A stretch of DNA of 64,000 nt from Beroe forskalii (Eukaryota; Ctenophora; Nuda; Beroida; Beroidae), in assembly GCA_011033025.1 (NCBI GenBank), contig WFMF01000089.1, positions 310,001 through 374,000 of the forward strand, read 5' to 3'. Under the pieces are notes generated by a model. That model did not search any database. It was not told where the DNA came from and worked only from the letters and a program-made list of their open reading frames with translations. This document shows positions 1 to 44,000 of the stretch, piece after piece. The position numbers were made by a program, and so were the translations under genes. Positions within the stretch are counted from its first letter, which is position 1, and the number at the start of each line of letters is the position of its first letter.

Positions 1-1236
1 GGAAATCCTCGTTTTGGAAGGCTTGATGAACACCTCATACTTGGTAGCAACAATACGAGTGAGATGTCTGATGGACTGTTCCACTGTGGAACTGTATTTG
101 GTAGTGTAGCTGTGTAACATGGCCCCGAGTAGTGTCAGAGTGTAGTCGGACACCAACACTTCTTCTCTCTGGAGAGAGAAGGAATGTGTGTTAGGGTGGG
201 AAGATCCAAATTAACGAGGAATTGAGTGTTAGTGTGAAAAGAAGGAAATAAACATTTGTATCCTTTAAGTAATGCAATATTTCAGTATACCTTATCAATG
301 AGCTGGCTTTACCTGAAAGTTCGGTAGAAAGCATTGAATGCCGTGGCTACAGCGTGTTGTTTGGACAATGTAGGGTGTTCTGCACAGTACAGCAAACTCT
401 TGAATACATTCCTGAAACGAGACTCAAGGTTTTATATTAACCTGTAGTTAACTGCGAGGTAGGGACCTCATTGCTAAAATAACTTGTACAGACGCTGCTT
501 TCGTTGAAGAAAAAAAAAACTTCCAAGTGAATAAAGTGAGAAAACCGCGGTAAACTCGATGAGAATGAATTACAGCTAAATCTCTAAACCTTGAAAAGTC
601 CAAAAGCCACAAACTTGATAGCTGGCGACATCACGTCGGAACTGTGTTTAATGCTCCATTTAAAGAATTCCTGAATGCACTCGCCACAGAATTCTCGTAG
701 TTCCATGTTAGACGACTGTTGTATCCCGTTCTAAAATTTTGACAGTGATTTATTTGTTATGGAAAAAAGCAAATTAGTTTTGGGCAAAGTTTGTTTTGGC
801 GGCAAAACATGTGGTATTTGCGCGCGCATTAGCGCGTTTCCTGCGCTGTATCAAATAGTTTATTGTACTTGCGCGTGCCGTATATGTGTGGCAAAATATG
901 TGTCACACAGCGTAAGTAGTTAGTTTAAAAAAGGCAATAAATTAACAAATAAAACTCAGTTGTAATTGTAACAAACTGGACAAATTATCACTTTATGCCG
1001 AGTGTAAGTTCTTCGATTGAATGGAAAAAGTTATCTATCATGCGAATTTTATGCCACACCGGGACTCGAACAGCCAGTAATCTGCGTCGATATGAAAATT
1101 AATAATGTGAATATTTTCAATTTATTTAATTTTTACGGCCTCAATGGCCAAAATAAAGATGCATCATATGCATATCTTTGGCAGGAAAAAATTTGGAACG
1201 CTTCACGAATTTGCGTGTCATCCTTGCGCAGGGGCC

Positions 1237-1275
<39 letters not shown>

Positions 1276-4200
1276 CCCGACCGAAGTCGGACGACAGAAT
1301 AGAATTCAGAAGGGGGTCTATCATAGAATCACAAAACAAATTCCCACTTTTCTCGCGTGTTGGCGGTTGTAAATCGTTAAAACACTGTTTTTTCATGAAG
1401 TTAGACCTACCATGATGTGCTGAAGAATGAAGCTGTCTTGTGCCCGGCTGGTCTGCCAGTGAATGACTTGAAACGCGAGTTCCCTGAAGATCTGTCTCAC
1501 TACCGTGTTGCTGTCGCTCCCTAACTCAAGGAGGACTGGAAGGGTGTGGTCGTAGAGTACCTGGGGAACAGCACAAGTGGTTATTATCGTCATTTGACAT
1601 ATCAAAACAGTTGACCGAGCCTGTAAGCTGTAGAGGAATTTGTTCTAATTTAGCTGTTCAACATCGCGAAAATATTTGGCGATGTCCACTCAGGTTGCGA
1701 CTTGCGATAGTCTGCGATATTAGGATGCCTCTCAAGAAACATAATAGACATGTCGAGATGTTCTGATGAAGCTCAGACCTCTTGCTATAAACAATACCTT
1801 GACTTTGTTAGGAGTTTGTTGCTCAGTAGCTACTGATATCATGAAGAGAGCATGTAGCAGCTCACACGCACTGGCTCGGGTTTGGGTGTCAGTTGACGTC
1901 TTGCACAGTCCCACCACCTCCCGTACCATCTCATCTGAAACAAAACGAGTAACTTGAAACTTCTCCAACTGCTTTTAGGCGGATTGTTTGTCAAAAAATC
2001 ACTACTTCGAGTCAAAACTCAAAACCTTTATCAAATACAACATTGGTTAACGGGTACAGTATACATGCAATGAATATACATGCATGAATATACAGTTTCA
2101 CCTTCGAATACTGTAGAATAGTTTAACCAGAAGTTATTAGTGAATTGGAAATTCCTTCAAATTAGCTGTGAATCAACAGTTTCGAACGTGATTCGAATAA
2201 ACGTGATTCGAAAATCATTGCCTGAGCTCGGAGAATGTCACGCCTCATCATGAATCGCACCTAACCATCCATTGTTGTCTCGGTCCTAACTCCCAGAATA
2301 ATTTGCAGAAAGAATTAATATTATGGAGAGAACAGTCAATCTCGCAATAGACCAATAGACGTACGATTTCACCAGTAAATAATTTCTGGAATCTTCTTCA
2401 CTGGAGGTAAATCACAGGACTATTGGCTGTTGTCCATTGTTTCATTGTGAAATTTCGGATTTGTTAGACGAACCGACATGATTCATCGTGACGAAGGAAA
2501 GGTGAATCTAGTGACAGCTACCCAGCAGCCACGGCCCATGAGCCACAGGTTGAGTACCTAAAACACCTGGCAACCAGTTATTTTCCAATAAAATCACGCT
2601 CAAAGTCAGCAACTCATGTCTGACTCATCCGCCTAACAAATTCACGATGTTGTTTCTGTGTTTTATTCTGATCGCGCTAGCAAGTGCAGAAGACCCTCTT
2701 AGAGCTGTACTGAGGTCCCCTCAAGCTTCCCTTAGACTCTACTCTCAGTTCAAGGAGACGAACCATCTACAGTTCGGAGTGGCAGAGAACAGTCGGAGAT
2801 ACCGCCTCTTCCTGGCATCAGCTCGTCATGTGGCTGACTACAACGAGGATAAACAAGATACGGGACACTACGGAGTCAACAAGTTCTCTGTGATGAGTGA
2901 GGGAGAGAAGAAGACATACCACGGACTGAACCTCACCAAATTTAATAAAGAAGAGGAGGATATGATGTGGGAAGAGGATGCCCCACGACTAGGAGCACCT
3001 TCAGAAAGTCTGCCTTACCGAGTGCTGTGGACTAACTCCGGATCAGTTACCCGAGTACAGGATCAGGGCAGCTGTGGCTCCTGCTGGGCGTTCAGCACAG
3101 TGGCGTCTGTAGAGACTCGGTACAAGGAAGGCTCGGGCATCCTACGTCGCTTCTCTGAGCAGGAGTACTTGGACTGTGTCTACGAGTCAGACAGGAGTTA
3201 CAATGGGTGCGATGGGGGCACAATAGTAGGGGCTTTCAGATGGTCCAAGAGGAATGGCGGGAGGTTGGCAGCTGCCAGAGACCGACCCTATGAGGGAAAG
3301 GACAAGACTTGTAGATCAGCTGGAACACCGGATGGGATGGTAGCTATGAAGATAACCGGGCTCAGATACGTGGGTAAAAGTGAAGAACGCCATCTTCAGG
3401 CACTGCAAAGCGGCGCTGTCACATCAGCTCTGGTTGCGACAGACAAGTTCCATCAGTACGACGGATCCATCATGAAAGACACCACATGTCAGCCATCTGA
3501 TGATGTGAACCATGGGGTTGCCATGGTGGGGTACTCCACCAGCTACATCCTCATCAAGAACTCCTGGGGTAGTAACTGGGGAGACAAGGGGTTCGCCAGA
3601 CTAGCTCGATATCACCACAACTGCAAGCTCTACACCAGCTCTCGCTACCCCGTACTAACAGCAACAGGTGTCAGTGACAGTGGACCTGACCCTGCCACAG
3701 AGTACCGTCCAATAGAAGAGAACAAACCAACCATATGTGCTGATACGGATGAGGATTACTGCATAAACTACTTGAAACCATATGGGTGCTGTGACAACGA
3801 CTGTACCTTTTTCCTTTCTTTCGGGGAGAGGATGAGATTTATGCTCGTGAATATCATATGTCCGAAGACGTGTGGCAAGTGTGGTGGCGCAGTTTGCCCT
3901 GGAGGCACCGTGGAGTGCAGTGATGGAGTTTGCAGACACGAACACATGTGTTCCAGAGGTTAGGATACGCAATGCTTGGGGTGTATCAATATCAGAACAG
4001 ACGATAGGATACGCAATGTTCAGGGCATATCAAAACAGAATGGCATTCAACCCCCGATTTCATCAGATATTCATTAGCTTATTTGAATTAGTTAATTAAA
4101 CGAGTGTTATTTTAACATGTGTCTTATTATTTACGTGTATCCAGTATCATTTCAAATAACGCGATGGGTTTCTAAAGTTCAAAATAATGACCATTTAATT

Positions 4201-7200
4201 TTGATGAAACATCCCCGCTCGAAATGAAGTGAGCTATATATTATGATCTCATTCATTGGTTTGCGATATTTGCCACAACCCAATTTAAAACTCATCGATC
4301 CTTCAAATTAGCGTCGACGGACGTCTAAGAGGAATAGCCCCAAAACCCATATTATGCTTATTCAGTTATTTTTTATTACAGTTACTGTATTGTATTGGAT
4401 GTAACTATCTACAGAGGGCAATACTCAGAAAGTATTCGAGTAAATTTGTTCAGCAAAACAGAAAAATAATGGTATCTTTTTTAAATAAAATTATACAAAA
4501 TCAAATATTTGAAGGTAAAATATCCTTTGAAATGTTCACTAAAAAGAAAAAAAGATGAAAATTCAGAGGGTCACTGAATTTGAAACCAAAAGTTACATTC
4601 AATGAATTACACCTACATAAAATTCAAAATGAATTCACATAATATAACTTCATCATCTTTGACAGCAAAATCGAAACCATTATGAATCAACAACTTGGTT
4701 ATTGTTTCTTTTCATAATCTAACCATTCATGAAAACAACACACTAAGTATTGACTAAGTAAGAAATCATTATACATCATGTCAGTACCAGTGCATCTATA
4801 AACCAGTGTTCCAATAATCCACATCCTGAGTCCCCTGTGGTTCTTCCTGAGTCCCTCTTACTCCTGGTTCTTACTCCTGGTTCTGCTTAAGTCCCTCTTA
4901 CTCCTGGTTCTGCTTGGTGGAAGACAAGCAGAGCGGTAGGATGAGGAGAAGGTGGAACACGAAGTGCATCCCTAGGAAGTAGCCAGCCCTCTCCACCTCA
5001 TACTGCGGGGGCAGCACCCCTGACGCACATAGCACCAGGTACCCAGCACCAAACACAGCTCCGTGAACCACCGCCTCCCTCACCAGACTCTTGATGAAGG
5101 AGCACTTGTCTGCCTTGGTAGCGCCGCTGTTCCACGAGACACAGAGGTAGTAAAAAGCAGGTCCGAACACGGCGAAGAAGACCAGGTACGCGTCACGGAA
5201 CTGGTCCGTGTAGAAGAAGGAGAAGAAATCCTTGGGCTCCCCCGCGTGGAATTCCTCGTAGGTTCCGGAGTACATGAGTGTGTCGTAGAACATGCCTTGG
5301 GTCACGAAGAAGACGGAGAAGGTCCACATGGAGGACTTGACGACAGCCCCCACACCGTGGGTAGCCAGCTGGTAGACACTCACCCGGTAGCTGATGAGGG
5401 CCGTGGCCAGGTGGAGAAGGGGCGCTAGAGCCAGGGCAGGGTTCCCAGAGATAGTCCTGGTGGTAAAGGTCGTCTCCCAGGCGGTGTGCTGGTGTAGGAC
5501 CCAGTTCTCCACCGGAGTGAAGACCCCGGATATCAGGACCAGGATCGCAGTCAGGTAGGAGTTACTCCAGGTGTTGTCAGGGAGGGGCAGTCGGTGTCTG
5601 GCACACGCTACCAGGTAGGATACAGAGGCATGCACCCACAGGGGCTCCAGGAACAACATGCTCAGTGGGGGATTGGGGGTTAGCGAATAAGCGAGATATA
5701 GATGCACTGTACAGTGTACACAGTAACCTAGCAAATTATAAGCAAACAAGTGCAGAGTGCTGCAATATCATCAACTATATACCTATATACCATTACCGTA
5801 GTAAGGCAACAAAAAATGAAGAAACCTCAAAGTAATACAAACTAATACAAAGCAGACACAAGAACTGAAATTCAGGAATACATTCTTACCGCTTTAAAGG
5901 AATATCAAATGTTACCACGTCTCAAATTACATATGCGCAATTGAATTTATTGAATCTAAATATAAAGACCGTAATAAAATCATGAATGTGCACGGTAATA
6001 CATGCGAAGTTATGAATTTCTGAACATGATAGTACATCGAATGAATTATCTCACCATGGCGTACAAAGAAATAAGAGCGATGCAAACGATTAATACATTC
6101 TCACGCATGGTAAATTCTGTTATGACTTATGACTGATAATAATATAAAGGCACTTCCAAGCACTCTTCAAATTGGGGTTTTGATAATATTTTAGGTCAAA
6201 TAAGTGCTGTCACATGAAAAAATTATGAATTTAACGAAACGTAACTGAATTTAATAATGAATTTAACTGAACATAACTGAATTTAACCGAACTTAAACTG
6301 CATGACAACTGACTTTACTTTCAGTTTCAAGCTTTACCCTTAGGGAGGTTTCAAAGGAGTACAATCTTTAATATAAAATGAATTCCCTGGAGCTCCTCCT
6401 CTCACACAGCACTGAGCGCGAAGCTCAGTATTTTTTTGCAATCCACTCATTTTGCGTAGAATGCACGAGCAGTAAACCAGTATCCATAGCAACGGCACCA
6501 ATAAGCACCTTTAGTCTTCGTTTTTCTTGATAATTTCTAGACATAAAAGATGATTCCGTGGATTGGATGCAAATTTGTGAAATCCACGGGCCCGCAATAT
6601 GAGCGATTCTATTGTTTGAAGTTGGGAAAGAGATTTCTTGAACAAAACTGGGAATGATTTAAAATGGATTGATTAGATTGTGGTAGTTTGTAAAGGGAAC
6701 ATAAGGGAAACTTAGCTGTTCCAGGATGCCAAAATGGGGCGAAAGGACGAATATTAAATAAAACTTATTAACAGCAATATAGTGACCATAAACCGTTCAT
6801 TTAAATCAGGATCATATCTTTTATTTTATTTTTTATTTGCATTATACCTTAGGAGGGTGAAATTTGAGGATCTTTCTCAAGTCATTACTCTTCTTACTTT
6901 CTAATTAACATAATATGATAATGAACTCATTTTTAACTGTCATGGTGTGTGAAAAAATGGGGATTTTTCCGAAAAAATACACCTCCTATGGTGCTGTACA
7001 ACAGACCACGTTTCAATGGGATACTATTACTCTATTATGCGCTATTATTAAGATTTCGGTTCCTACATTAATAATGATCCATAGTAAGAATAACATTTTT
7101 TTAGAAACGGAGACATTTAAGAATATCATAGATTATTTTTCAGATATTTTGGAAAAGCTTAGCAGATTAATGGAAGGAATGCTCTAAAACGGTCACCATT

Positions 7201-10200
7201 TAAATGCAGGACCTGGCTCGCTTAATCGCTCGCAGCTTTTGCTAGAACAAAAGTTAAGACCATTCCCGTTCTTAGCAGTTTATGATAATAACATCCTACC
7301 ACACTTTCCGAAGGTTCTCGGGTCCCTTGTGTTGTACTCATGTACATTCGTACCTTCTTATTTTCCTCGCATATTCCCCGTGTACGGGACACCTTGATTC
7401 TATCAGTCATCTATCCCTCTCTTCCGTTATATTAGTTTAACTGATTGGGGCTATAGACCTTCCGATAATGAGGCTGATACCACTTAGCTCGGTGTCTAAC
7501 CGTGTTAATCAACCTCGTTACCCGTAGGGCTATATCCTGATTAGATGACTGCGAAAGATTATCCTAGTTACGTGGCCTAGTTGGTTCCATTAACATTCCT
7601 TCGTGGATTGAGTGGATTACCCTAGGAGTTTGTTTACCTTGATCCCACGCTTAGGCGCGGCACGTGTCCGTGACATGTGACGCGCAGAGACTTTATAGGT
7701 CGGCTCCACGTCGATCTAGGGGCTTCTGGTTTCTTGCTTTCCTTGTTCAGTGACTACTCGTTCTCTGATCTTAAGAGTCAGTTGATTGTGTACTTCTTAA
7801 ATCTTACTATTTATTTTGTAGCAGTATTTTACCTGACAGTCCCTTTTCCTACCTCAACCCTCACTTGTACCCTTTATCTTACTATATAGTACCCCCTCGA
7901 GTTAATAACTATACTTGACTTCAGACTTCAGAGAAAGCGTAGGTAACCATTACGATACGTCATTTTATATACCTTCTCCCTTTTAACGCTGTGCAACCAC
8001 TTCGACTTCATCTTCTCGAGGGTATCTGCACAACTCTCAAAGTGAGAGATTATTATGATCGTTTATCATATCATCAAACTAAATGAAATTGTTACAGTTG
8101 TCCCTAGTTGTGGATCATTGTAACTTTGATAACATGCCAGTCCGAAGCAATTTTGATATGATCTCCTGATGTTAGGTCCTACTTTAGCAGCCTCTCTTTC
8201 CCTTTTGTTCACAAGTTCTCGCTAATCCAAGTGTCAGTTCTGATCTTTTCTTCTTTTTACATACCCTCCCGATTACTCCAGTAGCTCATTAAGGTAATTG
8301 CCTTCCCATTTTAGCCTCTTGGAGTCTACTGTCTACCTTTCCCTTTTGTTCCTTAGTTTCTCGCTTTCAAAGGGAACCTAAACACACACCTCTCTAAGTT
8401 GAAGCTTATACACGATTGAGAATTTAGTTGCTACCACGCAAGAAAATCGTTTCCCTTTGTTCCCTCACTCCCAAATCAGGGTTTAAACTTCAAATGAGCC
8501 GTATTGTCAAGTATAGGTCGAGCGAGAACTCTAAATTTTACGATACCATCGTTTTAATTTATTTGGCAGCGCATGCGAGCGTACTTTTTCACGTATTTAA
8601 CAAACCCTATTCAGAATCCATGTTGAAATTCCTAAGTCACGTATTGTGAGAAAAATACGAGTACTTTTCTTCAGAGGCAAATACGTCGTACTTTTTGGCG
8701 ATATATTCACGTTCTTAACATCCTGGATGCTGGATTCACATCACAAGCTACAGATGGAGGAATGATAATCAGAAACTATAGCAACATAATGGATTTTATA
8801 GCTTTTTCCAGATTTTTAAAATTTTTGAAAATTATACATAGTCAATAGTCTTGAGACCCCATCAGTTTCGATATGAAATTAAACTTACGAGACTTTTTGG
8901 TTTTTCCAGTGGTTATTATTTAATAACGCTACAATCACATACCTTATACCTAGATCCTAGTTAATAACTGTTGTGATGAAAGGGCGCAGCAATTCTTTCA
9001 TTGTTTGTTTGTTGCTACTATAATAAATCTAAATTTAGGTTAATGGAAACATGATAAGATGCTACTTTCCAAGAAAGTCTTTTTGTCTCCAGCACAGGGA
9101 GACTCGGAAGTTTGACAAAGCAATATAATTAAACTATAGTTCCCATTCCTTGGCTTCTTTTTAACTATACGTCTATTCACCATGTTCGTTTCTGACTGCT
9201 TCAAAGTGGATTAATTAAAACACGTCAGAAGAAAGACAATGACTCATATCTACCCCAAGAAAAAAGTTTGCACTGGATGATAGTCTATATCAGTCATCAC
9301 GTGTCGAGGAATCTCAAGGAATTTCAATTAAAATTTCAACTTTGGTTAACAATACTTCTTTCATTATCATTGAAACAGAAGATGAAACTCAACTTTTAGA
9401 CGGCGAACTTTTACCCTATTACTAGATAAAACAGTGTCGTGTGATTAATTAAAATTGGCACTGCTCCATTATCGTCAGGTTGATATAAAGAAGGATCTCC
9501 GTATTAGAACTACTTGTTTTTCTGATGATAAGCCCGTCAACTGTCAGACCAGTCCTACTTAGCTATTTGCTGATAAATCTTTATCTAGTTAGATAAGTAG
9601 ATAAAAGGTACATATGCATGATTGCACCGGATTACAGATAATTGAATTGTAGCTTTGCTGTATGGCTGTATATCATATCAAATCGCATGCAGTACACTAT
9701 GTACTGCACAATCACCCTTGCCCGACTGATGACCCGTTTCAGCCTGTGAACACCTTTATGTGACTTTACTGGCCTTAACTATTTAAATTATTTGCAGTAC
9801 CATTTATTACTTACTTGTTCATTTTAGCAAGATCTTCTCTTCTACCTTTCACTAACCTAACTGACATGAACTGATCAAGGTACAGCAATTCTGTACCTAC
9901 TGTGGTTAGAAGATAACATGAACGGATCAAGGTACAGCAATTCTGTACCTACTGTGGTTAGAAGATAAATAATTATCTTATTATGCTCATTCATTATGAT
10001 TTTGAATTGCTAAACACTTAAACATAACCATACTAATCTATTCTGTTTGAGCAGGTACATGGCGTTCGCTAGACCCTCTGTTCTTCACGGACATTTTGAG
10101 GACACCGTCAGGAGATACCCCAAAGTAACTGCTATCGAATGGTTCGAGGAGAGGTCGACAGTCAGAAGCAGGATCACGTACGAGCAGCTCTACCAAGATG

Positions 10201-13200
10201 TGGTGACACTGGCCGGTGCTATCTGCCCCTTCTTCGGAACTGAGTCTGTCGGAGCTATCTTCATGAAAAGGTCGTCAGAGAAGATTTATGTCGCCCAGAT
10301 AGCCATCAATAAGGCCGGAGGTGCTTACACCTGTCTCGATACAGCCTTTCCGGATGAGAGGGTGAGTTACATTCTGAACGATGCTAAACCTACCGTAATC
10401 ATAACCGACAGCCATTCGAAGAAGAGGTTAAAATCATGCATGAAAGACTTGAACATCCCAGTAATGGTATACGAAGATGTCAAAGCCTATTCAGTGAATA
10501 AGAAGCTCACTCAAGAAGACTTCCCAGTAGTGCCTGAAAACCGGCTGGCGTATGTAATCTACACGTCTGGTACGACAGGAAAGCCAAAGGGTGTTCTGAT
10601 AGAACATCGGAACATTTGCAACTTGCTTTATAATCACAGGATTTTCTTTCCTGAAATTTCCATGGGTTGGAGGATTGCCCAAATGTCTTCTGGGGCATAC
10701 GATTCATCTGTCGAGGAAGTGTACTTGGCATTTGCCAAGGGAGGCACCTTAGTAGTTGTAGATGATGAAACCGTACGACTGGGTCCCGATTTGTCACATT
10801 GGTTACAGAAAGAGCAGATTAATGTCTTGACCCCACCCCCAACTCTGCTGAGGAGCATGGGTCCCGAAGCCTCTGCCTCGCTTCCATACCTCAAGATCCT
10901 GTATGTGGGAGGGGAGGAAATGACTCCAGATCTGGTGAGAACGTGGTCCTATGGCAGGAGACTGGTGAACGGGTATGGTCCAACAGAGTGTTCTGTAGTG
11001 GTTTCTGTGGGAGAACTCAGGCAAAACCAACCAGTTACCATCGGAAAGGTCCTTGCGAACAACACAGCACACATACTTGACGAAAATCTCATGCCAGTAA
11101 AGTCGGGAGAGAAGGGTGAGCTTTGTATCAGTGGACTCAATGTGTCCCGAGGCTATCTAAACCGACCTGACCTGACTGCCACTAAATTCGTTGAACATGC
11201 CACTTATGGTAGGATTTACAGGACAGGAGATCTGGTGGGAGTGAATGAGAACGGGGACATGCTCTATTTCGGGCGGATAGACTCACAAGTCAAGCTAAGA
11301 GGATATCGCATTGAGCTGTCTTCAATAGAGGATTTCCTAAAGAAGTACGTTCCTCAGATAAGCGAGGCTGTCTGCACTGTTGTAAAGCATGGTAGTGTTC
11401 AGAAGATAGTGGCTTTTGTAATACTGCGGTACACTGACAGCATGCTTGACATACCATCAGTAAAGAATTGCATGAGTAACCAGTTACCCCACTACATGGT
11501 ACCATCAGACATTGTAGCTGTTCACTCCTTCCCTACAACCACCAGTGGCAAACTCAATACCACCGCACTCCAAAACATGTACATCAGTCAAGTCAATGGT
11601 AGTGAGCCAGACGAAGTTGCTGATCCACCAGCATCATCCAATGTGGAGCAAATCATTACTCGAGCATTCAGATCTAACCTGAACTTAGGGCGAAATCCAG
11701 CGCGAACCGACGATTTTTTTGAGCTTGGCGGGGATTCGCTGACAGCAGCAATGGTCATATCAGATCTTCGTAAACAGACAAGCACAGCAAAACTAGCAGT
11801 CAGAGACATTTACAATCAGAGGACCATAGGTAACTTAGCGAAGATTTGCAGCATGAAAATACCTGAGAAAGAAGTGACCCAAAAGACCCTCCCATTGCAA
11901 AGTTGCCCCATGATCGTAACACTTGCTCAGATTTTATGGATATCAGTGCTATTGTACACGTCCAGTCTCACACTTTCTAGTTTCACGTCCTCTAACAGCA
12001 CTCTGGAAGTCGTGTGCAGTCTCATCTTGGTATCACTCTTATGGATCCCCATAACAGTTACCTTGGCAGTGGTTGCTAAGTGGGTCCTCATTGGGAAGTA
12101 CAAAGCTGGAATCTATCCCGTTTGGGGTTGGTTCTATCTGCGACACTGGATACTGATGACCATTACATCAGTCATACCGTGGAAGTTCGTTTCTGGCACT
12201 CAGTTCCACAATGCTATTCTACGTGCCCTGGGTGCTAAGATAGGGAATAATGTCTATATCCACACAGCTCTCGTTGCAGAAGACGGGGGTTGGGACTTGT
12301 TACACATTGAGGATAACGTGGTGATAGGACGAGATGCTACTGTTGCTACCATCAAAGCAGAAAGACACCACCTTCACTTGGGGGCAGTGAATATCAGAGA
12401 AAACGTGCACTTGCAAACCAAAGCTCACGTCTGTTGTGATACAGAAATAGGGAGGAATTCTGTGGTAACGTACTCGTCACTGGTAGCATCAGGTACTGTT
12501 ATTCCACCATCTGTACAGGTATCTGGAGTTCCAGGCATGACTAGTCCCATCCAGCCAGCTGATGTGAAAAGAAAACTTTGCAAAGTGATGTCACCCTACG
12601 GATATGGAATACAATTTTTAGCCCTCAATACTCTAATCAACTTGGTGACCAATCCGATACTCATAGCATTCCAGGTAGATCAGTACATGGAGGGTTCAGG
12701 GTTTTACCTCTCTGAAATAAGTCTACCACTACTCATCACCATAAAATGTGCTCTGCTAGTTGGTGGGGTCTTGCTGTCTCTGCTGCTCCAGATAGTAATC
12801 TTACACATGTTGGGCGGGGTTGCTGAGGGGGTGTACCATCGCAGGAGCAGGGACTTCATGCACATCTGCCTCAAGGACAGGATTGTGTCCTCCGCAGGAC
12901 TTTTCTTGAGTGGCACCATCTTCTGGCCTACGTGGCTGAGGTGGGCTGGCATGAAAGTTGGTCGGAATTGCGAGATCAGTTCGATCTTTGAAGTGATTCC
13001 CGAGCTTATCACCATTGATGACGAAACGTTCTTTGCTGATGTGATCTATCTGGGTGGCCCCCGGTTTGCCGGTGATTACGTCATCATGGAGAGGATAAAA
13101 CTAGGAAAAGGAACCTTCCTTGGTAACCATTCCATCATACCGCCTGGCTCTCACCTTCCCTCGGATATCCTAATCGGGGTGTCCTCAGTTGCAGATGATA

Positions 13201-16200
13201 AGAAGATATATTCCGGATCCTCCTGGTTTGGGAACCCCCTTTTCGAGCTGCCCCGCAGAGAGGTGGTTGCAGCAGGTCGCTCAGTGACCCACAACCCCTC
13301 CACCATCCGGTACATCAGTAGGTTGTTCTGGGAACTCCTCCGGTTTACCATCACCATCCCACCTACTGGGGTCCTGGCTGCTTGGTACTACTTCCTCATA
13401 TCTCAGAAGGATGTTCAGGATACCACCACTTTCCAATACATCATGGTCCCAGCAGCCACAGTGGCATCACTCTTCTTCCTGCCACTGCTGGTCCTGGTGT
13501 TGAAGTGGTTCCTGATAGGAAGGATGGGGGCTGGGATACATCCACTTTGGTCCTGTTGGTGCAGCAGGTGGGACTTCCTCTACGTCATCTGGGGGGCTTG
13601 GGCTCAACCTGTCCTTGGCATGTTCAATGGCACTCAGATACTCAATGGAATCCTCAGACTTTTTGGGGTTTCCATTGGAGAGAACGTCTACCTCCATGGC
13701 ACAAAGTTTTCCCAAATAACTGACCCTGATCTGCTCCACTTTGAGGACGACACAACTGTCAGCTGCCACTTCCAAGCGCACACTTTTGAGGACAGGATTC
13801 TGAAGAAAGCACCACTATATGTAAGGAAGAGAGCTACAGTAGGGGGTGGGACCATGTTGATGTATGGTGCTGATGTTGGGCACGACACCGTGGTGAGGGA
13901 ACACAGCGTTGTCATGAAGAACGAGGTGATACCCCCACATTGCTGCTTTGTGGGGTGTCCCACCAGAGAGATTGGACATTAGAGGACACTATCGGAGACC
14001 AGACATAAGAGGAGACTTTGGAGACCAAAGGGGACTATCAGAGACCAGAGGAGACTATCAGAGAGTAGATGAATAAGACAAAGTCTGACCATGTTACAAT
14101 TCACTGACAAGATCACTTAGCCATTGATCAAATCATATACGCTCCATCTACAAATTATATTACTGATTTTGTTGATTTTGGGTCATCACTAAAATAATAT
14201 GTGAAATTTTAAATTATTGAGTTAATTATTGAGAATTTATTGAGGGGTTCATCGATGATATGTAACTTCATTAATAAATAATTGATATATCTACAATTTC
14301 TTGAGTCAGATTATTTTACGATTTCATTATTAAATACTTAATAATAAATGGGAAAATTGAATAACATTACCAAAATATTTATTGAAAATAAATCTTATTC
14401 ATTTCGTTTGCTTTTGAATTATGAAAGTAAAATAAAATAGTATGGCAAATACCTACTTACAGTAATTGTCGGTCACTTGCAGTTTTTTTAACAATAAACG
14501 GCCGCGTAAGAATTAATCAAGAGCCGGTTAATACCTAACAATAAACAATCAATACTTCTGTATCCAGTCAATCAAACGTTAAACTGTTATTAAGGGAGCC
14601 GGGGGGTCCGAGGTCGGATTTCGGGGTTTTTGGTGTTTCTGATAGAGGAGAATACCACCCACCAGTCATTTTTACTGCATCAAAATATATTACAGTCCTA
14701 GCCGAAGATATAAATATATCAAATTATGAGTTCGCCTGTGATTACAGTGCACGCTTCCACCGTGATTAAGGAAACCCCTTGAAACTTGGTGATTGAGTTC
14801 TAGGGCATAAAACAAAACTTTTGAGCGGACCAATTTTTAATTTAGGCCTCAGAAGTGAAAATTTTTGGGACAAGAGCCAACTTTGAAAGGCCATATTTGT
14901 ATATTTTCAAAAGTCGGCCCGCTCAAAAGTTTTGCTTCGTCAAGTCCCAGTTTAATGACAATTTTGAATTTACCGACCATTATAGCATTATTAAGTGACC
15001 GGTGAGTTCTCTCATAGGTATTTGACCAACTTCCAAAACAAACCTAGACACAAGTTGAGTTGTGAGGATCCCAGAGGTAGTGAAACATCGAGGACAGGTT
15101 CACTGGACCATGATATCTCAGGATATTCGGGAGTGATCAGGTGTATGTTAGCTGAGCCTCCGAGAGACCCACAGAGGAGCACGATACTGCACTGTAGACT
15201 GTACAGGGAAACCTCGCATCTAGAGGATTGGGTGATATGACTTACAGTATGAGCTTACTTTATACTTACAGACGACTCGTCGAACCTGCGACTCCGCATT
15301 TCAGGATATGCGTCATGCAACTTAGTTAGAATGTGCGATTCGCGAAACTACCCGGAAAAGCTGATAAGACGACGAATTTATAAATTGTAACTACAAACCG
15401 GTCAGTTGTGTCAGCTTTGGAGTTGAGATAGGGGTTAAGAAGGGGCAATATTTCCTGGTAATGGTCGGATAGGAGAGCTCTATTTCCACTTCTTAGTATC
15501 CTCCACATGCACTCTACACCCCGTACTCCTACTTCAAGACACCCGAGATAAGGAGTATCTAGGAGATCCTTACCGTCAATTACCATAATATCTGTGACCA
15601 ATTCCCAGCAAGTTATCCACTTCAACACCTCCCAAATTAACGAACCCGATGCCCCTGGTGAGTGCCTCCTTGAGTGCTAACACGAACATATCGACAGTGT
15701 CCAGTAGCAGGGACACGGGGTAGGACAGTAGCATGGAGATGCTGGCTATTCGTGTGTTCTCTGTCAGTCTGTCTAGCCGGTCAATAAGGGCACCACCGAA
15801 CCTAGCCAGCTTTACTCCTGCAGCCTCCTGAAAACGTATAAACGATGTGAATAGTGTCGGGCAAAGTGTTCATTTCGCGAGTTACATAATGAAGAGGGTG
15901 CTATACAATTCAGGGGTTTCATGTGATTTAGTGCTTTAGTGCTTTAGTGGCACTACGCTTAATCTTGCAGAATACACTAATACAAACAATTTAGCCCCCC
16001 ACATACAATGTACAGACCAAGTACAAATATTATACACTATACACGCCTACCCTGTGATCAGGGCAAGAGAAGTACTCGCTGGTGTCACAGTAGGCAATGA
16101 GGGCGTTCAGCAGCCAGTAGGAACACTCCAACTCAGGACGGGTAGAACTAGCCTTGATACACGTGTCCAGCAGTGGTGATACCCACTTTTCTAGCCTGAC

Positions 16201-19200
16201 AAGGGGGCTTTCGTATTGCTTCGAAGAGCAATATTCATTGAAATGAAAATTTAAATTATGTTTGATCTTTTGATCAATACATCTTGAACTAGGAATAATT
16301 TATCTAATCGCCAGCTCCTCCAGGGATATTACAATCAATTTTACATGATGCTTGGTTACAAAATATCATTCTCCTAATTTTATACCTATGCGTTATTAAC
16401 AATTAATATAGTTGAAAATTACCTGTCGTCATCAACATTTCCGATGATATCGGTAAGTAAAGTACACAGATTCCTGTAGATATCAACGTCCTTCTTCTGT
16501 GGAGCTGTCCCATCACCAGCTGTAGATGTAACCTCCATCTTATCCTCCTCCTCCTCTTCCTCGATGGGACTGATGTCCAACTTCTCAAATATTACCAGGA
16601 AACTGGGAGAAATAGGTTAGTACGATGAGCCATGACCAAAAAAATACCAAATTATATACCTTAGGAGGTCTATTTATATGGGTCGAAATTGCGGTGTTTG
16701 AAATTTTGGTAGGTTGAAAATATGGGGATTTTTTTCAAAAATCCCCAAATTTCACCCACCAAATAAAATTGGGTGATTTTCTAACTTTTTTGCTGACAAA
16801 GATACCGGAAAACAATGGAAAAATAAATTAATTCTAATATTACAAATCGAATTCGATCGTCTTCCTGAGCCTCTGCTTCATTACTGTTCTAAATTTTTGA
16901 ATTTTGTTTTAACCATTTGACTTTGACTAAATTATCTGTTACTATCTGAAAACTTCTGAAACGAAATTGTGCAAGAAATTTCGAAAAGCAGGTTGAATTA
17001 AATCGAAATTGTGGCGGGCAAAATTTTGGTAGGTTGAAAATATGGTGATTTTTTCGAAAAATCCCCAAATTACAACCTTTATTAATAGACCTCCTAAGGT
17101 AGGTTCATAACGATGCACCAATACCAATTGGTACCTTCAAGGGTGTACTCCTTGACACGACAGCTACAGTATTAGCAATTCGGGTAACTCTATTGGCATT
17201 TGGCTGCATTGGTACCTATTGATTAAAGTGTCAAAGACAGACACATGGATCTCCCTCTTCACATCCAACTCCTGAATCTGATCAGAGTATTTGTTCAGCA
17301 GGTCACTCCAAAGCCCTGCATACTCAGTTGAATCACTGTTACTCGAGCACCGTAACAAACCCTGTCAAAAGAGGTGATAGGGATGCGGAAATCATAAAGC
17401 ATCTTAGTCAAATAATCAAATAGCAAATTGTATTCTGAATACAGTAGGTAGAAGGGGGCATTGAAAACTGAAATCAGCTAAAAATCAAGATATTGTTTTG
17501 CATTGCATTTTTTATCTGACCGCGGTAATAATTACTAACTGCAGTATAAACAATACCTACAGACCTGGTAGGAGATCTCATTGAGCAGCCACTGGAAGGT
17601 GTCTTTGTCAGAGTGGACTGCACCCAACAGGTACTGAATTGGGCTGAAACAAATCCTCTGTACTCGCTGGTGCAACTCAGGATAAACCTGCACAGGATCG
17701 GTAAGAATGTTACCTTGATAGCTGACCGATAACTGATGGTGCACATTTTAAGTTTGGTCATGGCTTCATTCATGATCCAAAAGAAATTAAGAAAAGTTGA
17801 GATTTTCTTCGCCATATGGAAGAAGAATAAATTATTTGTTTATTGCCGGGCTATACTCCTCTAAGTCACTATTTTGCCACATGTTACCTCAATGAGAGAC
17901 ACTATCGGAGCAGCAAGTTGCAGTCTCATGTCAGATGACATGGTATCAATGCAGGAAACTGTGTCTGCTAGAGCAGTGATCACAGTGGGTAAGAGAGAAC
18001 TGTAGTCAGCATCACTCTCTGTAGCACTACCCCCATAAACCCTCTCACCTGAGAAACGGCCAAAACGTAAACTGTTATCTGATCATAAGCCCTACTCGAA
18101 TAAATCTAGCTATCTAAGCTACTGACTTACTTAAAATGAAATTTTCGAGATAAAACAGGATCTAAGTAAGTTTATGCATGGCAGCATCATTTGTAGAATG
18201 TAGTGGTTACCGGAGTATCATCTCCCTCTCACCCGCTGACAAGATCTTCTTGAAGAGTTGGGTGAGTTTCTCCTCTCCCAGGAGGTGTTTACAGGGCAGA
18301 GCCAGGTGTCCGAGGCACTGCATTACAGCAGATATCTGCCTCCGGTGCGGGGTTTGGAGGAGGGGAATGAGGACGGAGAGATAGTGCTGGAATAACCCTG
18401 CTCCTTCCTCCTCATTCCGTGTCATCTCTTTGCTCATCTGGGAAGAGGAGGAGGAGTGAGGTTTTAATATGATGTTGTAACTGGTATGTTAGTCATTTAG
18501 TGATTGACAGGTGAAATAGCAAGGATTTCTCATTGGGACAATTTAGAGCACATAGTATTTGAATTCATATCTAAATAGTGGAATCATGCAACAATTTAGT
18601 AAGAATCCCATTTTACTAGTACGGTGGTCGGCGGTGCAAAGCTTCAATAACCCATATCTATCAAACACAAAGTACCTCTAGAACCAAAGCCGAGAGACCT
18701 TTACAGACAGAGTTACGTAGCCCGGCATTCTTGGTGTTGAGCATCCCAACAAGGAAGTTGAGGAGCTTGATGTTCTCTTTGTAGAGATGCTCAGAGAACT
18801 TGGAAGTGTGCCCGGCAAGGATGTTCAGGACAGACAATTGCATGGCATGTCTGTGTGCTTCAACCTACGAGATTGATGAGGTTTATTGCAAGTCATTACT
18901 TTAAAACTACATAATTTCATATGAAGCAGCGTTGGCGTTAGTTGAATTAAAATTAGTCGTATAGAATCGTTAGCACAGTTTTAGCTTTTTGGCAATTCTA
19001 ATACATTCTTCAGATATACGTAATACTGTAATAGATACATACATTGCTTAATAGATACGGAATAGAAACGTAATAGATACATACATTAGGATTGCAACAT
19101 GAGACAAGTAGCTGGAACACCTCAGCCAGAGTTGCATCTGGAACAAGGTGAGGAAACGCCGAGAGAACACCATCAATCCCTGTGAAACTGGCAGCGATTA

Positions 19201-22200
19201 TCTGTAGCTCAGGGACCTTCTTCTTCACGGCTTTCATTTTCATCTGGGTAAACAATTAAATTATGCTACCAACTATTATAGTATTATATAATGAACCAGA
19301 CATTAATTTTTGAATATCTGTGTAATTTTACCCGTGCTTGTGCTAAAAACCAGTGCTATTTTCAAATTGAAATAAAGACGACATGTCGACAATGAAGTTA
19401 CTGTCTGACAGAAAATTTTAAATTATCTGCCAAATGGAGTCACGAAGTTTACAACTTTAATAATCACCATTGGCCATCGCAATAAAACTCATCTCTGTCC
19501 GTAAATTGTTCATGTAGAAGTTAAGCCATTTGGTCACACGATCATTATCAAACAAGCTCGTGGCAACAGTCATAGATTTTTGCATGAAATTGCAAATTGC
19601 ATCTGTAACTGAAATTGGATAATAGGTTCGTTCGTAAGTACTCAGCGTTGCCGTTCAGGTGATTTTTCCTGAACAATTAATAATACTGAATCATTCAATA
19701 ACAAATAAAATGTTCGATTAACAGATAATCCATGAATATACGCTTAGAGCATGGCTGGGAATGCGCTAATGGTCAACTGAAAGTATGATTTGACAAAAAC
19801 CATGGTTTAGGAAAATGGCTGTCAATCGAATCCATATTCCCGAGCCACTTAGTGAAGATTATTGCCTTATGCTCAAATGTTTTGGCTGTAAGATGGTTGA
19901 AAAACCATTTCAATAGTGTTTGTGGAGCAGAAGTTATGCAAGGTTTTCTATTGTGGAGCATTTTTGTGTGGAGCGGGCATATTTCAAAGCTTGTGTGAGG
20001 TTTTGAAATTATTTTTGAGTGAACTTGGTACAGCATCATTATGCCCTTCAGATGCGATGAAAAAACGATTCAAAACCATCCAACCAATGTGGAGTAATAG
20101 GCAATAACTGGAATTTTGAGACATATATCTATCCAACCAGGGTGTGGAGTTGAGATAGAAACAAATGGTTTTCATCACTGCAAAATTCATTCTCTTGTCA
20201 ATTTAAATCAATCATATTCGTTTATTAATTCCTACCAACCACTGTGGAGCAGGCATTTCAAAAAGTCATGTCAAAAATCCATAGTTTTAGACTTTTGTGG
20301 TTTTCAGATATGGTGCAAAAAAGTGGCTGTAAAAAGTCACAGGAACATTAAAATTTGCCCCAAGTTATCTATTCAAGTAACGTATTCCTAGGCCAACCAT
20401 GTGGAGTAATTTAAATCTCTAACTAATCCAACCATGTGGAGCAAGGCCTGTTTGAATCGGAAAGACTGCTCCACTACGGTTGGATTGATGTCTCGGATCC
20501 ATATGAGACTCTAATAATATGGATACATGAATAAACATCCTCTTGGAGCAAGATTCAACACCAAAGAGCTCCAACCAGTGTGGAGCTGACCTCCAAAATG
20601 ATGCAAATATTAGTAAATCTAAAAGTAAGTTTTACTCAATAGTATGTCACCATTAAATAAGTAATTTGCACATTCTTGTATTGAAAATTATGTTAATTTT
20701 ATACTTTCTGTATAGTTAATTTATAGGCCAACCATGTGGAGCCAGTTTCGAGTTAACTTGATCCAACCACGTGGAGCAAGACCTGTTTGCAAGACCGATT
20801 TTATAAATAATTTTAACCGTCCCCTTTTTCAAAATGAACACGTATCTTGCTCCACATGGTTGGTAAAACGTAACTTGATGATTGAACGACTACAATGCAC
20901 AATCATAATCCAGGTTCTGCTTTATATCTATTGCATAATACTATATATCATCCTAGTGGTACAGCTCCAGGACTCCAGATGCCCTCAATGATGACCTTAT
21001 TGCTCCACACTGGTTGGGTTGTTACTGTCGAGGACGCACACGAGATATATTTCTTAAGTTCTGATACCTCCATCTCAAGATTTGTTGGAATATTGAAGAC
21101 GGGATACTATTTAATTGCCATAACTAAAATAGCCCCATTTTAAAGCCATTGCTCCACATGGTTGGATAGAATTGTTAAGTAAAACTTACCTGGGAATCTT
21201 TAATGATGTTTTTCAACTCGAATTAAACCAAAAATTGCTAATTCTCAGAATTTTAGTATCCCAAAATCATCCGTGTTAAAACATGATTTCTGGTAAAAGT
21301 TTTGCCTCCACATGGTTGGATGAACGTGGTACAACCTCCACATGCATTGGAATAGTTGTAGGTTGATATTTACAAACTTCTGATGTCGTTTCTCATAAAT
21401 TTGTGTCTTATTTGAGTCCATGCAGCCCCAATAATAGTTTTTTACTATGAATGAGTTTCAAATAATCACCTACTCCACACTGGTTGGTCAATATATGATC
21501 ATATATTTGCATATATAGTATTCTAGAGACTCGTATTGTTCCCTTACAAACAAAAATACGAGCTGATTTCAGAAAAAATATGGTATTTTATGGCTCTGAA
21601 ATCAGCCCAATTTTTCATTGTTTTGCTCCACAATGGTTGGCTGTACGATCTTGTCCAACCAGGGTATTTCTAACTGTTTGGAGTATCATGTACACATTCC
21701 ATTTCATAGAATAACCCCAAGTTCGACAAAAAGCTTCAAGTGACAAATGGAGAATGCTAGTTTATATTGGTGTGTATGCTCCACATTGGTTGGATTTGAA
21801 ATTTAAGAATTATATAAAACAATAGACTAAAGTATTATAAGTAAAACCTCAAATTTTGAGATATATTAAGTAAAAAACGGCGGAGATATTTAACTTTCAG
21901 TCCATCTACCTCCAACCATGCTGAAAAACTGGTTGGAATTATGTCAAATCATACTTTCAGTTGACCTAATATAAATTATTGCACGAGGCGTAGCCGAGTG
22001 CAATAATTTGTAATGTCGCACGAGGAGCAGGCCGAGTGCGACAATACCAAATTATTGGACGAGGCGAAGCCGAGTGCAATAATTTTATTAGCGTCATGAC
22101 CATTTGCCATGCTCTTAGTGTATTAGCCAATGTGAGGAGTGCAATACTACTTATTATTGCACGCCTACAAGTACCCTCAAAATTGGCTAATGAAACTTAG

Positions 22201-41000: not shown

Positions 41001-44000
41001 GAGGGCAACAAGCAAAGCAAGAAGAACAGCAAGCAATCGAGTAGTAGGAACCCTGTGGCAGCTGCTCCTTCATCAAAAGTACCGTCACCTGTCTCAACTG
41101 CAGATACGCAGTCCAGCAGGTACGATTCAATGCCAGCTTTTAAATCTTTTGCTCTTCTATACTTATAGTTCTAATAAACAGTTTACCAATTGAGGTTTAG
41201 TGCGTTTTTGGTTCCCTTCAGACCATGACTCTTGAGTAGGTACTGAGTTTCTTAGTGTATTCAGGAATATACAACCAAATACATTCATGGAAGTTTCTTG
41301 TAACGGTACATGTACATTGTACAGCTGGTCTTACACTGTCACATAATATCGGATTACGCTGCGTTCCAGAGAAAGAAATGAGAAAAAGTAGAAATAATAT
41401 GTGGAAAAAAAACAATTTCACTGATCAATAATTCAATGCGATATTACATCTGATTTTCTGATATCATCTCTGACATTGTAATTAAAATCCTTGCTATACA
41501 ACCAAATTGGCCGCAATAGCAATGGCCTGCACGGAGCCCCTCAGTTTGGATTCCCTGTTCAACGTTTCATGTACTACCAGTCGCTCACCAAAGCAATAGT
41601 ACCCGTTGTAATCATGGAAATCCCGTTGAGTATCAGCAACACACACAGCCCCACCTTAAAACCCCACTTATTGAAGTACTGATTTAGATACACCCCTACC
41701 GGACTGCCACATAACGCTGCAGTTGCCACAGCAACGCACAACCACACGTCACCAGCCACAAACCACGTGTCTGCTCCTGTAGTTTCTAGTTCTGGGGTAG
41801 TGCTGAGGTAGGTTGAGATACGAGCGATACTGGTGGTAACCGCAAACACGCCCCCGATAGCGCGTATCAGCTCCTTGGAGAAGTCGTAGACGAAGAAGAA
41901 GAGGAAGAGGGGCGGCCCCCCGGCCCCCACCAAACCCCCGAGCAGCCCTCCTGTTGCTGCAGCCAGAACCATGAATATCAGGCGAGGGGTGATAGGCCAC
42001 AAGTCGTAACGAAGACGGGAGATACCGCGGACTATCTCTTCTTTGAAGGAAGTTTGGGGAGGGTCATTGGTTTTCTCCTGTGGAGGTGCTACTGGCTCCT
42101 GGGGTGTTGGGGATCTGCTTTTTTGTTCTACTTGCTGAAGTGACAAAGGTCCTGTGAGTGGGTTTCCAATAATCATTGCTTCCTGGTTTGACTCTGGTGT
42201 CAGGGATTTTCTGTTTGACACTGGTGTCAGTGACTCCTGGCTTGAACGTGGTGTTTGTGAGCTGTCTGTGGTAGAATTAATACTGCTCTCATCACCTTCA
42301 ACCTCCATTCCTTCAGAGGGGTAGTATGGCTCACATTTTATAACGTACTCCACTGTTTGGCTGGTTCGAATCACCACATCGCCAACCTCCTTATTTTCTT
42401 CTGAATCTGTAGAATTAAGAGCATCTTTGGGATTTATTGCATCTCCGACAAGATCCGCGGTGTAGTTGTAAAGAATGATATTTTGACGTTTTTCCAACGG
42501 ATATTGTCCAATTCCATCTCCAACTGAACTAGTAACTCCCGTCTCACTGTTGACTGTCGTGTTTGAATGGTAATCATCCTGTGAAACAGATTCTGAAACA
42601 GCCCCATTCTCCATCACCCCCTTCACCTTGTTACTTTTAAGGACCCGGTATATCTGGAAGAGCTGCCACCCCGCTAAGAAGAGGGTAGACGCCCCTATGA
42701 TAATCCTGAGGTAGGGCACAGCAATAAACTTCTGTAGATACACTCCAACAGGGGCACACATCAAGTTAAGCGGCACCATGACAACAGCTGCATCAGCTCG
42801 CAGGGATCGTCTCACGTTAGCTTTCCAGAGAAGAATGGGAGATACGGTAGCCAGACCTAGGGTCTGCAGGAAGACTGCGTACTTCAGACCCGGGAGACCA
42901 CAGCAGGTTTCCAGCCCAGCGATGGAACCTGGAGGATGGTAGAATTACCCTGGGGGTCCTTTCCGAACCTGAACTTAAGTCAAAAACCGACTAAAATCGA
43001 AATTGTAGTGTAAATTTGCAATTAACTTTCTATACACTATAACTTCAGAACGAAAGAATCAAAATGTTGGATAATTGGATGTCCCTTAATTTAATACTTT
43101 AACACTTAACAGAGTTTTGAATGGTAGACATCTACCTATTTCGTAGATGAAGAGGAAGACTATCGCAGCCCCAAACCCCATCGCATTGCACGTGACACTC
43201 CCCAGAAACATGCAGAGGGCAGAGTAGAGGATGCCCGTGAGAGTTGCCATGGAAACAACCGGATTCTAGGGAGTTGGAAGAGGAATTAGTATGTGAGGGT
43301 TGCCATGGAGACAAGGTTCTAGGGGTCTAGGTTGGAGGGGGAATTTAAACTTTTGAGACATAAATCAAGCTATCAAACCTCTCAAAAAGCCGTTTACTTT
43401 TTGTCGCAATGTCGCAAAAGTGCAAATCAGAATTATTGTTATTCCCAAAACGAAACACCAGACCCAAATCATGGGGAATGTGTCATTTGGAAACACAAAT
43501 TGATTATATCCAGTTAATAAATCCCAGTTTGCGTTTATTGCTTCTGAGACATCTTGCACAGCATCCATATATTACATGAATTATGAGCTTTATTACTTTT
43601 AATAAAAACCGGCCCGCATATAACTTCGGTAGAAACGATTCCTGGAAATGCGTACCAAGACAAGATTATTTATAGATATCTCTAGAAATGAACTTCCCAA
43701 AATAAATGTGTTTAGTTTCTATACTACTGTACTATACTACTTCTATACTATTACTACTACTACTGTATCAATCGAAAGTACACAAAAAGCTATTAAAAAA
43801 ACTCCTTATTTCTAAATGAAGGAAAAGCATTTGTAATATAACTGTACAGTGTGCATTGGCTAATTTTGACGGATTGATAATTCTAAGTTTTATGAACCAT
43901 CGCTATGAATTACGTTCAAACCTTACGTTCAAACCTTAGTATAGAACACTTCTGAAACAGAGTATGCGTATCAAATATCATTTCCATACAAATTACAGCT

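Follow-up and report, generated by a model that had tools for sequence, protein, structure and literature searches.

A predicted membrane-bound cationic poly(amino acid) synthetase of a distinct Pls/PosA subfamily, nested in the nuclear genome of the ctenophore Beroe forskalii

How does a gene with the architecture of a microbial poly(amino acid) synthetase come to lie in the genome of a comb jelly, and what might its product make? The question is raised by a stretch of 64,000 nucleotides from Beroe forskalii (assembly GCA_011033025.1, contig WFMF01000089.1, positions 310,001 to 374,000 of the forward strand), here called the window, in which a single open frame encodes a large protein resembling nonribosomal peptide synthetases (NRPSs; Table 1). 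Animals are considered to have few such enzymes. An original prediction, made from the sequence of the window, had regarded the gene as an intronless relative of ε-poly-lysine synthetase (Pls) acquired from a microbe. Taking domain content, substrate pocket, phylogeny and genomic surroundings together, we lean towards a functional nuclear gene of the ctenophore encoding a membrane-bound, single-module NRPS-like cationic homo-poly(amino acid) synthetase, which would belong to a distinct subfamily and make a cationic oligomer or polymer.

The coordinates and overall anatomy of the original prediction were borne out. Counted from the ATG at 10059, the frame encodes 1307 amino acids with zero internal stops, and upstream of this ATG it stays open as far as a TTG at 10047. 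Pfam matches cover AMP-binding (residues 13-367, 3e-68), AMP-binding_C (431-498), PP-binding (535-595) and Hexapep (777-806), while the 1307-residue protein gave no Pfam match to the condensation domain PF00668. An adenylation domain is thus followed by a carrier domain without a classical condensation domain, which is the arrangement of the Pls/PosA superfamily and not that of a classical multimodular NRPS. The core motifs, announced as complete, are indeed present: the adenylation motifs are intact as judged by eye, and the carrier serine Ser560 is intact in the alignment. Applied to the coding sequence, the description as one exon is right, the frame running without an internal stop. Since a plausible 3' splice site ends four bases before the ATG, the gene may have an intron in its 5'-untranslated part or be trans-spliced; across the window, the same branch-point/3'-splice pattern is not enriched (39 found, 58 expected).

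The part downstream of the carrier matches NCBIfam TIGR02353, the Pls/PosA terminal domain, over its full length (model positions 8-694 of 695, E 9e-109). Membrane segments in this part were called by simple hydropathy at thresholds of 1.5 and 1.2. Five segments are found at 1.5 or above, and the lower threshold adds the one that completes the third pair as well as an extra segment at residues 942-960. Because the method also calls segments within the adenylation domain (438-456 and 51-69), it can serve as a rough guide, and the six membrane segments of the original prediction hence lean partly on the layout of relatives: five of them stand at the stricter threshold, whereas the sixth appears only at 1.2, alongside the extra call. 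For the three beta-helix-like modules likewise predicted, the Hexapep match in the first module (C1), the full-length TIGR02353 match and an AlphaFold model published for the related PosA (PMC10522769) give partial support, with no Hexapep match in modules C2 and C3. Two motifs of C3, CWCSRWD and QxHxFEDR, are kept in 98% or more of the rows of a 52-row alignment, and the form QxHx(F/Y)(E/H)DR also occurs in the five canonical Pls/PosA rows aligned. By analogy with hexapeptide acyltransferases, QxHxFEDR is a candidate catalytic motif and His1241 (encoded at 13779-13781) a candidate general base. The ctenophore C3 thus carries the CWCSRWD motif of the subfamily, although the constancy of this motif among the fetched loci is partly due to selection, since it also served as a search pattern.

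That the gene resides in an animal nucleus, as had been supposed, is well supported. Its contig comprises 537,359 bases, and exons of the host gene for DNA-PKcs flank it on both sides on the minus strand, so that the synthetase gene lies nested antisense inside an animal gene. Of these exons, those at 17.9-19.3 kb matched DNA-PKcs with an E-value of 1e-5 when searched alone and with an independent E-value (i-Evalue) of 0.18 for the same part in a joint search; the minus-strand frames at 15.3-16.6 kb had no match of their own among Protein Data Bank (PDB) sequences. The interval between the flanking exons holds the synthetase gene, a cathepsin-like open reading frame (ORF) and a third ORF, and a U6 spliceosomal RNA gene is found within the host gene region as well. 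Codon usage of the synthetase is closest to that of the DNA-PKcs exons (r 0.66; GC content at third codon positions 0.533 vs 0.522), with r values of 0.09 and 0.03 for homologues from Bdellovibrionota and Streptomyces, respectively. The 216-Mb assembly contains one full-length synthetase match, the six others being adenylation or adenylation-carrier parts only, and the genome also encodes a match to PF01648, the phosphopantetheinyl transferase family. Its mitochondrial contig (13,339 bases, 17.5% GC, with a cox1 whose TGA codons read as tryptophan) yielded no tRNA with ARAGORN, and the absence of mitochondrial tRNAs is a ctenophore trait; the contig thus points to a ctenophore. For the mitochondrial genome of B. 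forskalii, a GC content of 17.3% has been given (PMC6991124). Bacterial contamination or a chimeric assembly could be suspected from the single exon and from the fact that the nearest relatives among those searched are bacterial. As the gene sits between DNA-PKcs exons on a 537-kb contig, with codon usage nearest to those exons and a best bacterial match of ~43% identity among the sequences searched, this explanation is very unlikely, and contamination was discarded.

Within the plasmid collection, four Streptomyces plasmids encode relatives that align with 95% of the query at ~40.5% identity, and Pls/PosA proteins reach ~26-30%. Prokaryotes were scanned with the terminal domain, using one genome each of 84,980 species and two patterns (CWCSRWD and a GGWDLL motif) which select for a subfamily with the pocket code DSECYGGVTK; this gave 346 pattern matches and 165 relatives, the best 80 of which were kept (loci L008-L087). 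Among these best 80 of 165 and the plasmid matches, full-length relatives show 36-42% identity by blastp, and the nearest bacterial relatives among those searched reach ~40-43% over the full length. The subfamily extends over at least eight bacterial phyla, namely Bdellovibrionota, Myxococcota, Acidobacteriota, Planctomycetota, Verrucomicrobiota, Armatimonadota, Actinomycetota and Pseudomonadota. A scan of viral_contigs returned 163 pattern matches and zero relatives of the synthetase; a viral carrier was rejected on this basis.

A likelihood tree of 47 rows was built from the ctenophore protein, 33 of the 80 genome loci (hand-picked for spread), the plasmid locus L001 and 12 canonical Pls/PosA loci from plasmids. 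Here, the ctenophore protein and the 34 bacterial subfamily rows are split from the 12 canonical rows with a support of 100, and the ctenophore row lies outside all 34 (support 86). Trees of the adenylation part and of the terminal part alone gave the same split, again with the ctenophore outside (supports 88 and 96, respectively). Its branch is long, with 1.17 changes per site, and hence the exact placement is soft; in a larger FastTree tree, for which 12 of 87 loci had been dropped (8 partial or truncated, 4 taken as near-duplicates), its position beside other rows is unsupported (27). As for acquisition from a bacterium or fungus, the nearest relatives among those searched are bacterial, and a fungal origin has no support from these sequences, which include none from fungi. 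Gene transfer into the ctenophore is plausible, although the tree, with the ctenophore protein outside all bacterial members, points to no donor lineage or date. Most likely, the gene derives from an ancient bacterial donor and has since adopted the codon usage of its host. The same branching outside every bacterial member, at supports of 86-96, would also be expected of an ancient eukaryotic or animal gene passed on by vertical descent and lost in most animals, for which the mention of homologues in some Metazoa, Alveolata and Amoebozoa (PMC10522769) speaks as well and against which the intronless coding sequence argues. We regard such descent as doubtful; it would be compatible with any of the functional readings weighed below.

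What the enzyme might activate can be judged from its pocket, which, read through an alignment, consists of D215, S216, E219, T258, Y282, G284, G305, V313, V314 and K498 (DSETYGGVVK). Across the 80 fetched bacterial loci, DSECYGGVTK is found in 68, six carry variants (L011, L024, L048, L054, L068 and L071) and six are without all or part of the domain. Eight of the ten ctenophore residues are identical to this code, and the two that differ fall on what are presumably positions 278 (C to T) and 331 (T to V) in GrsA numbering; the ctenophore substrate may therefore differ from the bacterial one. Four of the bacterial variants (L024 DSESHGDVVK, L048 DSECYGDVSK, L054 DSECHGDVVK and L068 DSASHGDVVK) carry Asp as their seventh residue; in L068, Ala additionally replaces the conserved Glu. 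The code DSECYGGVTK has also been given for the Bdellovibrionales protein Bdello_A, whose adenylation domain showed no preference for the four known diamino acids and modest activity with L-arginine (PMC10522769). The counterparts of Asp235 and Glu239, typical of adenylation domains for a cationic α-amino acid, are present as D215 and E219, and mutation of the PosA equivalents of these two residues abolishes activity (PMC10522769). With a pocket near the Bdello_A code and both acidic residues kept, the ctenophore enzyme would most likely take an α-amino acid with a cationic side chain in a roomy pocket. It resembles Bdello_A and the bacteria of this code in its clade (established from the fetched loci, Bdello_A itself not being among them), in full-length architecture, in the CWCSRWD motif and in most of the pocket. 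It differs from these bacteria in its animal host, in T and V for C and T, in its long branch and in showing no match to a SET-domain protein in window or genome.

This last difference concerns a gene that often accompanies the bacterial synthetases. The count covered the 69 subfamily loci whose upstream sequence reaches 700 bases or more and whose N-terminus is intact, with close relatives (L059 and L060, for example) entered singly. Of these, 31 have a gene with a Pfam SET domain on the same strand which ends at most 1 kb upstream of the predicted synthetase start or, as is often the case, overlaps it. Such a neighbor was found in 11/11 loci of Actinomycetota, 9/15 of Planctomycetota, 4/5 of Armatimonadota, 3/6 of Verrucomicrobiota, 2/9 of Acidobacteriota and 2/4 unassigned loci, and in 0/14 of Pseudomonadota, 0/3 of Bdellovibrionota and 0/2 of Myxococcota. 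In L033, labelled Gammaproteobacteria, the SET match overlaps the predicted start by 459 bases, which is just beyond the cut, and the locus was counted as lacking it. In the plasmid locus L001, a SET gene lies ~10 kb off on the opposite strand. The neighbor is absent from all 13 canonical Pls/PosA loci, which come from plasmids throughout and in four cases have only ~1 kb of flank. Of 25 genomes searched that are without an adjacent copy, 20 gave no match and 5 only weak ones elsewhere (E 1.7e-12 to 1e-4), with strong matches in 5/5 positive controls. The rows of Bdellovibrionota and Myxococcota, which are among the nearest to the ctenophore by path in the 47-row tree, are without the neighbor, and no SET-domain match was found in the 64-kb window. 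Hence, the SET gene is a frequent, lineage-dependent neighbor and not an obligate one, since 38 of the 69 loci lack it, the rows of these two phyla included, and the ctenophore genome gave no match at E <= 0.001; the notion of an obligate partner was dropped on account of those 38 loci and of the 20 searched genomes without any match. Methylation by the SET protein of the amino acid, of the carrier-bound residue or of the product are all possible. Among other neighbors, a kinase-like family recurs at varying places in 11 loci, and families confined to a lineage recur in 4-6 loci, none of them being comparable to SET.

Relatives of the terminal domain are known to make δ-poly-ornithine and ε-poly-lysine (PMC10522769). 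By homology, the ctenophore enzyme may work along similar lines. Going by the pocket and the one assayed relative, the adenylation domain would activate an α-amino acid with a large cationic side chain, such as an arginine-like residue or an extended or modified lysine. The aminoacyl group would then move onto the phosphopantetheine of Ser560, for which the motif is seen and a host transferase could supply the prosthetic group. The membrane-anchored three-module domain might join successive residues or pass a residue to an amine acceptor, so that a cationic product, oligomeric or polymeric, would arise at a membrane. Its use in chemical defence, storage or surface chemistry is a matter of speculation.

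Several points weigh against a cationic polymer synthetase of this kind. The TIGR02353 score of 364.7 bits lies below the curated equivalog cut-off of 423.1. Compared with PDB sequences, the adenylation-carrier part scored highest against modules of classical NRPSs, with 7wew (poly-lysine synthetase) and 8g95 (PosA) ranking lower. Codon usage correlates with that of six other host frames at r of just 0.23-0.54. Two pocket residues depart from the bacterial code, and a search of the ctenophore genome for the SET protein gave no match at E <= 0.001, a weak test in which one candidate was scored. For none of the members of the DSECYGGVTK subfamily are we aware of a product. Arginine has no side-chain primary amine, and for this reason isopeptide polymerization in the style of Pls would be chemically awkward for it. 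Furthermore, the authors of the PosA study suspect a larger analogue as substrate of Bdello_A (PMC10522769).

The low profile score bears at the same time on the identity given in the original prediction, a canonical ε-poly-lysine or, by extension, δ-poly-ornithine synthetase. Four bacterial members of the subfamily likewise fall below the cut-off (L008 388.5, L016 383.9, L012 379.4 and L001 356.1 bits), whereas three canonical loci reached 548-773 bits (L002 772.6, L006 547.8 and L005 615.9). The canonical enzymes share architecture and superfamily with the ctenophore protein, as well as the residues conserved as D215 and E219. They are placed in a separate clade, and the pocket DSETYGGVVK stands against DAESIGTVVK in L007, which we take to be of the lysine type, as we do L130. 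PosA, the δ-poly-L-ornithine synthetase of Acinetobacter baumannii, is alike in the order of adenylation domain and carrier, in the three membrane pairs with three modules as predicted for the ctenophore protein, and in the acidic D and E of the pocket, but has the pocket DMEHNGTVSK (PMC10522769), and full-length plasmid matches from A. baumannii are 30% identical to the ctenophore protein. The ε-poly-L-lysine synthetases Pls and Epls of Streptomyces and Epichloe, respectively, differ from it in their lysine pocket, and identity to the plasmid member L007, used as a stand-in for this type, is ~27%. With neither a lysine pocket nor a placement beside L007 and L130, and with a score below the cut-off, the ε-poly-lysine synthetase label was abandoned, and a canonical synthetase of either kind appears improbable.

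A more serious rival, because the one assayed relative prefers arginine, is an amino-acid conjugase, which would charge one arginine-like residue and move it once to a small amine, a lipid or a protein in the manner of Ebony. Ebony conjugates an amino acid; it and ACSF4-U26 are not known to carry the Pls terminal domain with its membrane segments. Both nevertheless resemble the ctenophore enzyme in joining an adenylation and a carrier domain in an animal protein, so that single-module proteins of this kind already exist in animals (PMC10531068). Activity of Bdello_A with arginine, which is not polymerizable through a side-chain primary amine (PMC10522769), is in line with this alternative, as is the mean identity of just 24-26% between the terminal domain of the DSECYGGVTK branch and canonical members. 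At the same time, the terminal domain spans the full Pls/PosA profile and keeps QxHxFEDR, which argues against a single transfer; a conjugase is possible, if on balance unlikely. The cationic polymer synthetase, which we still prefer, allows a broader and rather tentative version, in which the whole subfamily, bacterial and ctenophore, might make an undescribed cationic polymer or conjugate from an arginine-like or N-methylated lysine residue, with a SET-domain methyltransferase encoded just upstream in many bacteria, the ctenophore having domesticated it as an animal-made biopolymer.

In the literature, the Pls/PosA superfamily is known, and homologues in "some species from Metazoa" were noted in 2023 (PMC10522769). 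The reference to "VibA-type" enzymes in the original prediction was mistaken and VibA was rejected as an enzyme, for VibA acts as a transcription factor, the synthetase of the fungus being Epls (PMC7179176). A kingdom-wide NRPS survey, which used antiSMASH and one flatworm NRPS as query, does not contain "ctenophora" or "ctenophore" in its main text (PMC10531068). Among the matches listed, which cover papers other than subscription articles and preprints and pocket codes printed without spaces, there was no report of a ctenophore NRPS, of an ACV (aminoadipyl-cysteinyl-valine) synthetase or of the pocket code. As far as these searches go, the ctenophore member with its nested location, the well-bounded subfamily falling below the NCBI Pls/PosA cut-off and the SET association are new. 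If the proposed function is true, an intact and host-adapted membrane-bound NRPS for a cationic polymer in a ctenophore would extend animal chemistry by a novel type and offer new cationic materials, possibly with antimicrobial action. With a coherent subfamily in at least eight bacterial phyla, a near-invariant pocket and a frequent SET neighbor, the question of the product is directly testable.

Table 1 Features of the synthetase gene and its host gene in the window (residues refer to the 1307-residue protein)
Feature	Position	Strand	Basis
Single-exon coding sequence, Pls/PosA-like NRPS (adenylation, carrier, membrane/beta-helix terminal domain)	10059..13982	+	ORF, Pfam, NCBIfam
Adenylation domain, ~residues 13-510	10095..11588	+	Pfam and pocket alignment
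Carrier (PP-binding) domain, residues 535-595; phosphopantetheine Ser560 at 11736-11738	11661..11843	+	Pfam, alignment
Membrane pair 1, residues 616-634 and 655-673	11904..12077	+	hydropathy
Soluble module C1, residues 674-852, with Hexapep (beta-helix) match 777-806	12078..12614	+	Pfam, hydropathy
Membrane pair 2, residues 853-871 and 897-915	12615..12803	+	hydropathy
Soluble module C2, residues 916-1095	12804..13343	+	TIGR02353, hydropathy
Membrane pair 3, residues 1096-1114 (lower threshold only) and 1135-1153	13344..13517	+	hydropathy
Soluble module C3, residues 1154-1307, with CWCSRWD (1166-1172) and QxHxFEDR	13518..13979	+	alignment, hydropathy
Plausible 3' splice site with its branch point (CTAATCTATTCTGTTTGAGCAG; CTAAT...GAGCAG)	10033..10054	+	sequence
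DNA-PKcs N-terminal exons; pieces 17864-18082, 18210-18488, 18664-18864, 19013-19255; match residues 211-428	17864..19255	-	E 1e-5
DNA-PKcs later exons; pieces 1735-1974, 1396-1644; residues 908-999; Pfam DNAPKcs_CC1-2	1396..1974	-	i-Evalue 5e-12
Additional frames, presumably belonging to the host gene as well	15329..16616	-	open frames without a PDB match of their own
U6 spliceosomal RNA gene, within host gene region	1187-1292	-	115 bits

Elsewhere in the ctenophore assembly, contig C330 carries a tri-modular NRPS in a 3212-residue single frame (150793-161646, minus strand) with the pockets EPRNIVEFVK, DHESDVGITK and DFESLAAVYK, which we take to be those for aminoadipate, cysteine and valine in ACV synthetase (two agree exactly, the third at all but one position). 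The frame is followed by a thioesterase match in another frame, and MFS (major facilitator superfamily) transporter frames lie on its other side. On the same strand, ~3-5 kb past the NRPS, an intron-containing gene resembling isopenicillin N synthase (IPNS) is located (~145100-147480, minus strand), exon pieces of which, chosen by eye, matched solved IPNS with 1e-64, the next family following with 2e-19. Among the best 8 matches each, plasmid relatives of this NRPS and of the IPNS-like gene were generic only, with 27-29% identity. Ctenophores are known to have IPNS-like "FYY" proteins (PMC4488382). Judged by these sequences, C330 would hold a putative penicillin-type (β-lactam) gene pair in a ctenophore.

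Within the DNA-PKcs gap of the window, the cathepsin-like ORF (2647-3963, plus strand) is a single frame of 438 residues with a Peptidase_C1 domain and a cysteine-rich C-terminal tail resembling, by eye, a ShK domain. The third ORF (4898-5749, minus strand) is a single frame of 283 residues, hydrophobic by eye, and gave no Pfam match. Shortly upstream of the synthetase, two 52-bp tandem copies with 98% identity occupy 9864-9968. The regions at ~58700-61000 and 19800-21700 contain the same translated fragments on opposite strands and are probably copies of a dispersed repeat. Finally, an ORF at 41574-42815 (minus strand) with a TauE/SafE exporter domain (7e-14) is probably part of a larger gene.

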